From Bacteroides acidifaciens (GTDB lineage: Bacteria > Bacteroidota > Bacteroidia > Bacteroidales > Bacteroidaceae), in contig NZ_JANJZR010000017.1 of assembly GCF_024623065.1 (NCBI RefSeq), positions 1 through 64,000 of the forward strand: a DNA stretch of 64,000 nt, written 5' to 3'. A model generated the notes under the pieces. The model made no database searches and had not been told where the DNA came from. It worked only from the letters and a program-made list of their open reading frames with translations. This document shows positions 55,505-63,862 of this stretch, in pieces (the stretch's first letter is position 1; every line of letters starts with the position of its first letter). Both the position numbers and the translations under genes were made by a program.

Positions 55505-56632
55505 TCATTTTTGTACCGTTTTGAGTTTTTTTATCCATAAATAATATCCAGTCAACGGCAATGCAGCCCCAATCAAAGCAGCAATAAAGGCAAGTATGCG
55601 GGTAAACATTCCTCCCCAGTTACCGACATGTATAGAATAAATCCAACCGCGAATCTTTCCTGACTTGTCTTGATGTTGATAAAGACTTGTTTCTGTAAAT
55701 TCACCATTATCCGTATTGAAAGAATAACGGTCAGATGCCCGCTGGTTCCCAAAACGGTTGAAAGACACGCTTGCCGTACCGGAAGAAATACTGATTTGCT
55801 TATATTCCGGATTCTGACGGCTTAGTTTATCATAAACCTCCTGCCAATAAGCGAATGGTTTCTTTTTCTGATGAGATGCCGGTTTGGTACCACCTTTTTG
55901 AACATCACTTTTCTGTTCATGTCCTTGGGCGACACGTTGCTGTACTTCTACCCCGAAGATCTTATAGAAAGCCATCCGATACCACGGAAAAGACCAGGTC
56001 AATCCCGTCAGTGCCATAGCCAACAGAAAGATCAGAGCATACATTCCACCTGCCACATGCAAGTCATACCAAAACCTTCGCCATCCTTTAGTTGCTGTTA
56101 TCTTCAAGCTATTCTTCAATGCTTTACGTGTACGCGGCCACCAAATGACAATTCCCGAAATCAGAACGAATACAAGTAAAAGCGTACTGACACCTACAAT
56201 CATCTTGCCCCAAAAGATCCCTTCATTTCCCGGATTCATACTATCCAGCAGCCAGCGATGCATTCGGAACATAAACATAAAGAAGCCGCTACGCTCGCTT
56301 TTTCCTTTTACTTCACCCGTATACTGGTCTACATACAAAGATGCACGGCGTGGTTTGGAAAGACTAACCTGATACGCACGTCCGGGATCAGAAGATATGC
56401 TGACACCGGTCACTGATACACTGTCAGGCAATGTCATTGCTACTTTTTCAAGCAGTTTATCCATAGGTAGAGAAGATTCCTTTACCGTTTCCACGTAGTA
56501 AAGGTCGGGTCGAGACCACTCATTCACCTCGTTTTCGAACACCAGCATGGCACCGGAGAAACAGATTAGAGTTATTACCAGCCCGAAAGGGACGGAAAGC
56601 CACAAATGTATTTTTCTGAATATTTTTTTCAT
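55505..56632 (-). CDS. xusC: PepSY-associated inner-membrane protein, XusC-like
   Basis: 375 residues from MKKIFRKIHLW; an upstream in-frame Met is less likely. It has four main helices (e.g. VPFGLVITLICFSGAMLVF and the final FIAALIGAALPLTGYYLWI) and PepSY-type periplasmic domains. Conserved His/Trp around KIHLWLS and FMFRMHRWLLD suggest heme or electron transfer. It is last in a receptor - DUF4374 - PepSY operon equivalent to B. thetaiotaomicron xusABC. There it is proposed to reduce or import ferric siderophore iron. Confidence 0.85.
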   Translation of the reverse strand: MKKIFRKIHLWLSVPFGLVITLICFSGAMLVFENEVNEWSRPDLYYVETVKESSLPMDKLLEKVAMTLPDSVSVTGVSISSDPGRAYQVSLSKPRRASLYVDQYTGEVKGKSERSGFFMFMFRMHRWLLDSMNPGNEGIFWGKMIVGVSTLLLVFVLISGIVIWWPRTRKALKNSLKITATKGWRRFWYDLHVAGGMYALIFLLAMALTGLTWSFPWYRMAFYKIFGVEVQQRVAQGHEQKSDVQKGGTKPASHQKKKPFAYWQEVYDKLSRQNPEYKQISISSGTASVSFNRFGNQRASDRYSFNTDNGEFTETSLYQHQDKSGKIRGWIYSIHVGNWGGMFTRILAFIAALIGAALPLTGYYLWIKKLKTVQK

Positions 56633-56724
56633 GTTTTCAATCCTATTTCTTGAAAAAGCCTGCAAAGCTTTCTGCTCGGCAGACTTTTATCTACAACAAA
56701 AGATTCTCTACTTAACCGGCTGTA

Positions 56725-60569
<3,845 letters not shown>

Positions 60570-60761: not shown

Positions 60762-61613
60762 CTACTTCAGCCAACTCGCTAACGCACGTTCCGTTACCTC
60801 CCACAACTGCTCTTTCTGCACATGATTCGTGTATTTATCAGACAAATTTTTCCGGTGGTTATTGACATACAGTTGTCCTGTCACACCAGCTTCCTTCTCG
60901 TCCAACAGTAAACCGATTGCCGTAGAAGCCCCTTTCTTCGGTTTACGGATAAAAGGACGGAAAAAAATATCGGTCAACGGATCGAACCACTTGTGCATAG
61001 TGATGATATCAGTAGAAACAATTCCCGGGTCGGCAGCATTGACGGTAATCCCCTTCTCCCGAAGTTGTTCGGAAAGTTCGAAAGTGAACAACAATAAAGC
61101 CAGCTTCGTGTTGCTGTAAACAGATATTCTCCAAAACGTTCCCGTTTTCCCCCTATGAAAGAAATCCGGGAAGTCGAGCTTGCCGATTGCGTATGTACAG
61201 GAAACCATATTTACGATACGCGCTCCACGCACCATCAGTGGAATTAATTTCCGGGTAAGCAGATAAGGTCCTATATAGTTCACACTTACTGTTCGTTCGA
61301 ATCCTTCGGAAGTAGTATGAAAGCCTGTCTCCATTGTTCCGGCATTATTCATCAACAAAGCGATAGGAAGGTTCCTCTCTGAGATCCGGCTGACAAAAGA
61401 AATCACGGATTGCATGGAAGATAAGTCAAGAGCCATAACCTCCAAATCCGGGTTTCCGGTTTCCTTGCTCAAACGTTCACGAACAACCTCCGCTTTCTTC
61501 GGATGATAACAAGCCATAATGATTCGATAACCGGCTTTGGCTACGGCACGTGTTATTTCTGTTCCCATCCCTCCGTCCGCACCGGTGATGATTGCCCATT
61601 TCATTTCACTCAT
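60762..61613 (-). CDS. Short-chain dehydrogenase/reductase (candidate hydroxysteroid dehydrogenase)
   Basis: 283 residues. The Rossmann start is AIITGADGGMGTEITRAV; MNNAGTME is the NNAG motif; and the catalytic pair is in SVYSNTKLAL (YxxxK). It reduces a ketone or oxidises an alcohol with NAD(P)H. It overlaps the flavin reductase gene by 4 bp. In Bacteroidota bile-acid clusters the equivalent gene is a 3-beta-hydroxysteroid dehydrogenase. Retinol-dehydrogenase-like SDRs look similar, so the substrate is inferred. Confidence 0.88.
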   Translation of the reverse strand: MSEMKWAIITGADGGMGTEITRAVAKAGYRIIMACYHPKKAEVVRERLSKETGNPDLEVMALDLSSMQSVISFVSRISERNLPIALLMNNAGTMETGFHTTSEGFERTVSVNYIGPYLLTRKLIPLMVRGARIVNMVSCTYAIGKLDFPDFFHRGKTGTFWRISVYSNTKLALLLFTFELSEQLREKGITVNAADPGIVSTDIITMHKWFDPLTDIFFRPFIRKPKKGASTAIGLLLDEKEAGVTGQLYVNNHRKNLSDKYTNHVQKEQLWEVTERALASWLK

Positions 61614-62833
61614 TTTTTCTCCAGTTTATCAATCTCCTTTTGTAAAGAGGAAGGTAATTGTTCTTTCAAATGTTGATGACAAGCCATTTCTATCGTATAC
61701 ATACGTCCTATACAATAATTACTGTGTCCACAGTTGCAGCGTGCTTGTTCTTCCTGCTTCATCCGGTTCACGAATCCCGGTTCGTTGAGCAAAGCTCTCG
61801 CCATCTGCACAGCATCAAAACCGGAATTGAGCACTTCATCTATTTTCTGACGGGAAACAAGACCACCGACATAAATCAACGGCGCATCCGGAAGAGCCGC
61901 ACGGAATTTCAGCGCATCTTCAAGGAAATAAGCCTCTTTAAAAGGCACAGAGGGTATCATCCATTTGCCAAACATACGGACTCCGCATTTCAGCCACCAA
62001 CAATTCATATAGTAAGACATCGAACGAATCGGCATGGCACCCCTCATTACATACATGGGTGCTTTGCTGACAAAACCACCGCTCAACACCAATCCATGAA
62101 CGCCAAGTTCCAACAGACGTTTGGCCACTTGTATGGATTCGTCAATCTCCATTCCTCCTTTGAAGCCGTCGCGCATATTCATTTTGACGAAAACAGCCAT
62201 ATCATTGCCCGCCGCTTTCATCACTTCTTCCATCACCATATCCATAAAACGCATCCGGTTTTCGAGCGAACCGCCACATTCATCTTTCCGGCGATTGGTG
62301 TAGGGAGACAGGAATTGACTAATCAAATAGCCGTGCCCCGCATGTACTTCAACGGCGTCAAACCCGGCTTCCCTCGCCAGATTGACTGCATTTCCATACG
62401 CTTTCGCCATCTCCGGCAACTCCTCTTTTTCCATTCCACGCACAAACGTAGGAGAATAGAGGTTGAAGCCTGAAGATGCGGATATAGGAGTGACACCACA
62501 TATATTTTTATGGGACATATTTCCACAATGCCCGATTTGTATACCTACTGCGGCACCTTCATCGTGCACGGCTTTTGTCAGTTCGTGTAAACGGGGAATA
62601 ATGGACGGACGCAACCACAACTGACGGTCGAAAGAGAGTCCGCTTTGTGTCACGGCAGCATAAGCCACTGTTGTCATACCCACTCCGCCGGCAGCTACCG
62701 AGCGGTGGTAGTCCAATAACATTTGTGAAGGATTATTCCCCGGACACATGCTCTCGAAAGCTGCCGAACGAATCGTTCGGTTCCGCAGCGTCAAAGGTCC
62801 GAAAGTGACCGGAGTAAAAAGCTTGTTTCTCAT
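61610..62833 (-). CDS. Old-yellow-enzyme flavin reductase (candidate steroid 5-beta/ene reductase)
   Basis: 407 residues, a single FMN TIM barrel. Typical blocks are GPLTLRNRTIRSAAFES (start), QIGHCGNMSH, EVHAGHGYLISQFLSPYTN (His/Tyr catalytic area) and MARALLNEPGFVN. A C-terminal Cys set (CNCGHSNYC...C) resembles the Fe-S site of longer dienoyl-CoA reductases, but the FAD/NAD domains are absent. Related enzymes saturate the delta-4 bond of 3-oxo-steroids. Operon position between an SDR and a 5-alpha-reductase supports a steroid or bile-acid role. Confidence 0.88.
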   Translation of the reverse strand: MRNKLFTPVTFGPLTLRNRTIRSAAFESMCPGNNPSQMLLDYHRSVAAGGVGMTTVAYAAVTQSGLSFDRQLWLRPSIIPRLHELTKAVHDEGAAVGIQIGHCGNMSHKNICGVTPISASSGFNLYSPTFVRGMEKEELPEMAKAYGNAVNLAREAGFDAVEVHAGHGYLISQFLSPYTNRRKDECGGSLENRMRFMDMVMEEVMKAAGNDMAVFVKMNMRDGFKGGMEIDESIQVAKRLLELGVHGLVLSGGFVSKAPMYVMRGAMPIRSMSYYMNCWWLKCGVRMFGKWMIPSVPFKEAYFLEDALKFRAALPDAPLIYVGGLVSRQKIDEVLNSGFDAVQMARALLNEPGFVNRMKQEEQARCNCGHSNYCIGRMYTIEMACHQHLKEQLPSSLQKEIDKLEKK

Positions 62834-62911
62834 AGTAGTCGAAATTTATTCAAATCTCATTTAATTTGTGATAATATTCATTCTTTATGATTCATCCTTT
62901 ATGGTCTATTC

Positions 62912-63673
62912 TCAATAAAGGAAAGGGAATACCCGTTTCCTCTCTCCCACCGCATCACCGAATTCTTCACGGTAACGGCACCAAATAGCGTTAGCACGGG
63001 GAACAAGGTTAGCAATCGTCCACCAAAGGAAGACCATACCGGAAAGTGAACAAGTGAGTATCGCCCAACCTGCCCATTCTACTATCTCACCGAAATAGTT
63101 GGCGGACGTGACATAACGGTACATACCTTTCTGCGGCAGATAATGCCGTGTATCTCCCGGTTTGCGCAAGTGGCGGATGACATAGTCCGAATGCCAGTTG
63201 ATCAGCATACCTGTGAAAAACAACAGAGTACCTATGATAAACCACGGAGACGTAAACCATTCGCTCTGATACATCGTTCCGGGAGCCAAATAAAATATCC
63301 ATTCGCCTTGCATATAACCATTCAGCAGGTTAAAAAGAATTCCCATCGACATGATTGCCAGCGGCATCTTACTTTTCCCTTTCAATAGCAAAGGGAAGAT
63401 GAAAGCACGCTGAAAATAATGAATTTGAAAGAAGAGAAAGAAGGCCAATATCGCCGGTTCAAAACGGCGGTCGGAATGCATCCACATGAAGCACATCACC
63501 AGAAAGACGGGAGCTTCCATCAATACCCAAGCTAATTTGTTAGATATGGCCGCTCCCCACGATGCCGTGCGAAAGATGCCGTATCCGGCTTTCACAAAGT
63601 AAAGGGCAACGAAGACAAATAAAGCAATCAGACTCATTATACCCAAAAACAGATTAAAAGCAGTCGTAGTCAT
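62912..63673 (-). CDS. Steroid 5-alpha-reductase family membrane protein
   Basis: 253 residues from MTTTAFNLFLG; the frame extends upstream but the hydrophobic N-terminus starts here. It has about six helices. The C-terminal 3-oxo-5-alpha-steroid 4-dehydrogenase signature is visible: HSDYVIRHLRKPGD, then YRYVTSANYFGEIVEWAGWA and a NADPH-binding W..R end (WCRYREEFGDAVGERKRVFP). It would reduce a delta-4 steroid or an enoyl lipid in the membrane. It lies 78 bp upstream of the flavin reductase, same strand. Confidence 0.88.
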   Translation of the reverse strand: MTTTAFNLFLGIMSLIALFVFVALYFVKAGYGIFRTASWGAAISNKLAWVLMEAPVFLVMCFMWMHSDRRFEPAILAFFLFFQIHYFQRAFIFPLLLKGKSKMPLAIMSMGILFNLLNGYMQGEWIFYLAPGTMYQSEWFTSPWFIIGTLLFFTGMLINWHSDYVIRHLRKPGDTRHYLPQKGMYRYVTSANYFGEIVEWAGWAILTCSLSGMVFLWWTIANLVPRANAIWCRYREEFGDAVGERKRVFPFLY

Positions 63674-63862
63674 ATAGAAATTCTTTTGCAACATGCAAAA
63701 GTAAAAAAAATGGGGAAATTTGTAGCACAAAACTTCCTAAATTAAAAACTCCATGATACATAAACAGTTTTCATCACAAAGTTTTAGTTAATCAAACAAC
63801 ACCTATCCCTCTTTCCGCTAAAATAACCCTCCCCAGACCGTTTCGCCTATTTTCACAGATAG

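Follow-up and report, generated by a model that had tools for sequence, protein, structure and literature searches.

Three adjoining minus-strand genes near the end of the window (the whole stretch of DNA analysed, 64,000 bases, taken from a contig of 74,941 bp as its bases 1-64000, in a genome of 4.85 Mb) raise the question of which reactions they encode and on which steroids or bile acids the enzymes would act. We found the genes in the order 5AR, OYE and SDR between 63673 and 60762: a membrane steroid 5-alpha-reductase homologue (5AR; 62912..63673, 253 aa), an FMN old-yellow-enzyme protein (OYE; 61610..62833, 407 aa) and an SDR protein (60762..61613, 283 aa). An earlier note had described a single minus-strand reduction operon whose genes are first separated by 78 bp and then overlap by 4 bp, and the coordinates agree exactly: 78 bases separate 5AR from OYE (62912 / 62833), and OYE and SDR overlap by 4 bases (61610-61613). 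All three frames are open, corresponding to intact genes, and none of them is truncated by the window edge since the contig extends to 74,941 bp. The 5AR open reading frame was listed as 62912-63730 from a TTG codon, while translation more likely begins from the ATG at 63673, which gives the 253 aa. This is an intact trio of the gut-Bacteroidota kind. It would likely turn bile acids or steroids of the 3-oxo-delta-4 form, and probably also of the 3-oxo-5-beta form, into flat 5-alpha, 3-beta-hydroxy products.

A weak candidate promoter, TACTTTTG (63696..63703, minus strand), lies 22 bases before the 5AR start and fits the consensus of the Bacteroides -7 element. No exact -33 TTTG was found at the usual spacing upstream of 5AR, the nearest candidate being TGTG with a spacer of 22, and a promoter with both Bacteroides elements was not found there. 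Just upstream of 5AR we also observed a 165-aa minus-strand open reading frame (window 63792 to end; L002:3793-4290). It matched the N-terminal end of aconitase (PF00330) barely over the cut-off (29.0 bits against 28.7) and is probably a gene remnant.

The three enzyme families claimed for the locus were all recovered by profile matches (PF02544, PF00724 and PF00106). In particular, 5AR matched the Steroid_dh profile PF02544 with an E-value of 9.4e-39 (133.2 bits, cut-off 22.6), and this was the only match of the profile in the whole genome. Alignment to characterised proteins had been suggested as a check; run for 5AR, it gave matches over nearly the whole length to a bacterial SRD5A structure (7c83, E 1.1e-53) and to human SRD5A2 (7bw1, E 1.2e-38), both of which have the Glu/Tyr and cofactor-site residues in common with the window protein and are homologous to it over the full length. 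Residues E53, Y86, N159, D163, R170, E196 and Y234 were invariant in 81 out of 81 aligned rows; E53 and Y86 correspond to the catalytic Glu-Tyr pair of SRD5A2, and residues of its cofactor site are among the others. In contrast, the His-rich stretch that precedes Y235 in human SRD5A2 is replaced in the window protein by I230, W231 and C232, a difference that we counted against the trio explanation.

Clusters of this kind are known from Bacteroidota, as had been claimed. According to the accessible text of PMC10382948, strains of P. merdae, O. laneus and B. dorei turn 3-oxo-delta4-LCA into isoalloLCA, P. merdae no longer gave allo-LCA derivatives once its 5AR gene had been disrupted, and the 5AR gene clusters with a predicted 3-beta-HSDH and an NADH:flavin oxidoreductase that was hypothesised to be a 5-beta-reductase. 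The route, as outlined in the accessible portion of PMC10672800, runs from 3-oxoLCA through 3-oxo-delta4-LCA and 3-oxo-alloLCA to isoalloLCA; its first step is an oxidation by the 5-beta enzyme. Excerpts of two further papers describe an equivalent indirect pathway for DCA (PMC9645264) and 5-alpha-reductase activity demonstrated for B. uniformis and Odoribacteraceae (PMC12589954, citing Sato 2021). The window trio, likened by description, has its three enzyme families in common with the isoallo-bile-acid cluster (Sato et al. 2021; PMC10382948, PMC10672800, PMC12697870, each as far as its accessible text goes), and its 5AR gene lies in a cluster together with those of a flavin oxidoreductase and an SDR, as in the cluster definition given in the available part of PMC10382948. 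Because the same enzyme families are clustered in Bacteroidota, the window trio joins this published kind; it adds one more case to a cluster type that was known from gut bacteria before and is no new system. A Parabacteroides MAG locus (L070) carries the trio in the window order, with 61, 78 and 57% identity. The earlier reading is right for the enzyme class and the cluster kind and is partly supported overall: the three enzyme families, the operon-like layout and the cluster kind stand, while the word 'reduction' may misdescribe the middle gene, since the published 5-beta enzyme oxidises 3-oxo-LCA to 3-oxo-delta4-LCA (PMC10672800, accessible portion). No link between B. acidifaciens and isoalloLCA or 5-alpha-reductase was found within the accessible text of one paper from a literature search. 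A search with the tags BT_2067/BT_2068, which were our guess for B. thetaiotaomicron, found no paper.

In the chemistry that we propose, OYE would interconvert the kinked 5-beta 3-oxo form and the 3-oxo-delta-4 form, and the membrane 5AR would reduce the delta-4 bond with NADPH on the alpha face, a reaction class suggested by the SRD5A homology. SDR would turn the 3-ketone into a 3-beta alcohol, the chemistry being indicated by the conserved Ser-Tyr-Lys and the stereochemistry by the published cluster. In sum, the A/B ring would be epimerised and the 3-oxo group then reduced, leading to isoallo-type bile acids or 5-alpha-reduced steroids; both the substrate and the stereochemistry of the trio we infer. 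One homologue of the CBAH family (bile salt hydrolase / penicillin acylase; E 7.7e-67) is encoded elsewhere in the genome and could release free bile acids for the trio, although the family includes penicillin acylases as well.

SDR matched the adh_short profile PF00106 (E 2.1e-32), and the Ser-Tyr-Lys of the SDR superfamily was found as S138, Y166 and K170 in 65 out of 65 rows of an alignment of 64 loci and the window, which takes in distant SDRs as well as reads that are short at the N terminus. The glycine motif residues T10 and G11 were present in 55 of the 65 rows, the other 10 being the N-terminally short ones. The predicted structure (mean pLDDT 78.4) had protochlorophyllide reductases and (polyketide) ketoreductases as its nearest solved folds, with 17-beta-HSD14 further down the list, and these neighbours leave the substrate undecided. 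We propose that SDR may be a 3-beta-hydroxysteroid dehydrogenase, with the stereochemistry suggested by the published cluster.

OYE matched the Oxidored_FMN profile PF00724 (E 1.6e-56, 192.5 bits, cut-off 27) and gave one match in a search of the genome; the closest named protein among the matches listed (best 120 of 7999) was from Bacteroides acidifaciens, with 98% identity, and it is this label that the species name depends on. The predicted structure is an OYE barrel (mean pLDDT 87.3) that resembles YqjM-like ene-reductases, and the active-site residues H164, H167 and Y169 were found in 66 out of 66 rows. That alignment comprised 65 of the 68 loci with an OYE match plus the window, after rows below 85% length had been dropped; the ones left out were, as read, two cut by contig ends (L032 and L055) and one split (L012). 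BaiCD and the Clostridial steroid 5-beta-reductase ci2350 are OYE-family flavoenzymes proposed to act on the same carbon-4/5 bond (PMC12238238, accessible text), and their catalytic Tyr is kept in the window protein as Y169. However, OYE scored 176.6 bits against the BaiCD model NF041087 (cut-off 825), over model positions 2-261 of 642, which leaves it outside that family. In the accessible text of PMC12238238 (Arp et al. 2025), two positions separate the Clostridial reductases, with N/S in hormone enzymes and Tyr or Ser/Glu in bile-acid enzymes. Placed on OYE by way of FadH, these positions hold G168 (64 of 66 rows, Ala in 2) and Q173 (66 of 66), matching neither Clostridial clade, so the substrate cannot be inferred from them. 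The low BaiCD score and G168/Q173 appear to speak against the trio explanation and were counted so. Two other assignments of OYE were rejected, namely bilirubin reductase (127.7 bits, cut-off 425) and N-ethylmaleimide reductase (128.9, cut-off 403). The role proposed for OYE is that of a 5-beta-reductase / delta-4 dehydrogenase, which we infer.

The architecture of OYE is odd. It consists of the barrel and a C-terminal cysteine segment, without the FAD/NAD(P)H domain of the long FadH/BaiCD-type enzymes: its 407 aa compare with 642 positions in the BaiCD model, which has this C-terminal half, and with 672 in FadH, and nothing follows in it beyond the segment where FadH bears its Fe-S cluster. 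In contrast to OYE, 2-naphthoyl-CoA reductase, trimethylamine dehydrogenase and E. coli FadH all run on into further domains. C368, C374, C385 and H386 were conserved in 66 out of 66 rows and C366 in 48, while the spacing of the cysteines is unlike the C-x2-C-x3-C-x11-C of the [4Fe-4S] motif in E. coli FadH. A metal site in OYE is an unproven candidate, since the tail of the model is of low confidence (residues 372-377, pLDDT under 50). By VIA-align the model matched Fe-S flavoenzymes over 1-407 and most of the short OYEs listed only to about 364; the two groups lie within few Z units of each other, so the fold comparison cannot decide on the metal site, and the absence of BaiCD among the fold matches listed has no bearing either way. 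About 34 residues (roughly 256-290, depending on the aligner) have no counterpart in FadH, and a predicted helix (279-292) falls mostly within them.

There is a more specific reading, which as a whole we regard as unlikely: OYE would be a cut-down Fe-S flavoenzyme that has lost an NAD(P)H module of its own and provides the oxidation in a ring-flipping system with almost no net redox change. It would remove hydrogen from 5-beta steroids to give the delta-4 intermediate, and the electrons would leave through a non-standard metal site of three cysteines (plus His or a fourth Cys) to a separate carrier such as ferredoxin or flavodoxin. The membrane 5AR would return hydrogen on the opposite face, and the inserted helical stretch of OYE (roughly 256-292) may dock at the membrane beside it.

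We then examined how often the three genes occur together. A scan of named genome records with 5AR as the query gave 253 matches, and the best 80 by 5AR similarity were kept, a set that leans towards Bacteroides. The trio was found on one strand with the partners downstream of 5AR in 56 of these 80 loci, in line with the operon-like layout of three adjoining same-strand genes proposed earlier. The incomplete loci (24 of 80, nine of them ending soon after 5AR at contig ends) were counted against the trio explanation: 12 had OYE without a window-type SDR (4 at contig ends), 6 had SDR without OYE (2 at contig ends) and 6 had neither (3 at contig ends). These counts require an SDR identity of at least 36%, and L066 and L067 carry distant SDRs right behind 5AR. 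A different SDR-like gene adjoins OYE in 3 of the 9 OYE-only loci inspected (L042, L043 and L052); several lineages lack or replace SDR. Whole-genome searches of 11 genomes with incomplete loci recovered OYE elsewhere in three (those of L065, L066 and L077) and not in the other eight.

Across 99 genomes that sample the order evenly, OYE (E<=1e-60) was present in 11, all among the 14 genomes with a PF02544 match below 1e-30 (hypergeometric 2.9e-12, relatedness ignored). OYE and 5AR were adjacent in 9 of the 11, about 9 kb apart in one and on separate contigs in one. In the genus sample (60 genomes), OYE was present in 30, each time within 1.5 kb of 5AR, and 5AR in 33. The pattern in both samples is that of OYE depending on 5AR as its partner, and not vice versa. 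The trio is kept by selection, as follows from its joint presence in the majority of the 80 loci and from the constant proximity of OYE to 5AR in the genus sample. Among the 56 complete loci, mean pairwise identity was 62% for SDR, the most variable, 67% for 5AR and 79% for OYE. Distances correlated at r 0.94 between OYE and SDR, and at r 0.74 and 0.69 between 5AR and the other two, with significance taken from label shuffles that ignore relatedness; 5AR is co-inherited less tightly than OYE with SDR, which we counted against the trio explanation. The homologue listings covered the best 120 of 5941 proteins and, for OYE, the best 120 of 7999. We also noted one genome of the genus sample (G163, contig C47:28383-30432) with 5AR and OYE both interrupted, side by side, as if the whole function had been lost.

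The substrates are where the main alternative lies. With the chemistry unchanged, the principal natural substrates may be steroid hormones or dietary sterol ketones instead of bile acids, the delta-4 bond serving as an electron sink, and we hold this to be a real, if lesser, possibility. B. reticulotermitis (L011) retains 5AR and SDR while OYE was found nowhere in its genome, and the same holds for five MAGs (L023, L026, L053, L064 and L074). These genomes, counted against the trio explanation, suggest that the pair may work without 5-beta substrates and so favour a wider steroid role. The host of B. reticulotermitis is a termite, and termites are not known to make bile acids. Paludibacteraceae MAGs, several of them from ruminants or horses by title, retain 5AR and OYE; the closeness of 5AR to SRD5A enzymes points the same way, as does the tracking of women's DHT/T ratio by gut 5-alpha-reductase genes (PMC12589954, accessible text). 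Against this, bile acids were what the published Bacteroidota cluster acted on, as far as its accessible descriptions go.

Two other readings alter the role of a single gene. SDR may be a 3-alpha-HSDH, or act on another steroid carbonyl, so that the end product would be allo and not isoallo; this seems improbable to us, given that the published cluster couples 5AR to a predicted 3-beta-HSDH (PMC10382948, accessible text) and that the SDR distances follow those of OYE so closely. On the other side, stereochemistry is not fixed by sequence, no NCBIfam model among the matches listed (best 25 of 192) reaches its cut-off, and both the nearest solved folds and the lowest conservation in the trio speak for this reading. 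That OYE is a general xenobiotic or enoate ene-reductase unrelated to steroids is very doubtful. Its barrel is YqjM-like, and among curated models the broad OYE ones score best, all well short of their cut-offs, but OYE always occurred in genomes with a strong 5AR (11/11 in the order sample and 30/30 in the genus sample). We retain the conversion to 5-alpha, 3-beta-hydroxy products as the preferred explanation.

The trio is a solid but mostly expected finding, of which the odd OYE architecture is the notable part, as it raises the concrete question of the source or destination of the electrons. Isoallo bile acids from such clusters are reported to inhibit Gram-positive bacteria. If the B. acidifaciens match is right, the window would derive from a mouse-gut commensal in which each gene is intact and present once, so that a single-locus deletion could probe isoallo effects in mice.

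Downstream of the trio, a TonB receptor, a DUF4374 lipoprotein and a PepSY membrane protein are encoded consecutively on the minus strand (55505-60569), a make-up that corresponds to the XusABC xenosiderophore system in the accessible text of PMC13142918. We rejected these genes as part of the trio unit and treated them as its neighbour: besides the XusABC make-up, they lie 192 bp further on and occur beside the trio or its parts in 4 of the 80 loci (L003, L006, L011 and L013; loci unequal in length). Finally, there are two clusters each in B. finegoldii and in a Bacteroides MAG (L004 and L049; L006 and L017), with 5ARs about 90% and 63–75% identical to that of the window, the second clusters being an old duplication or an acquired copy.
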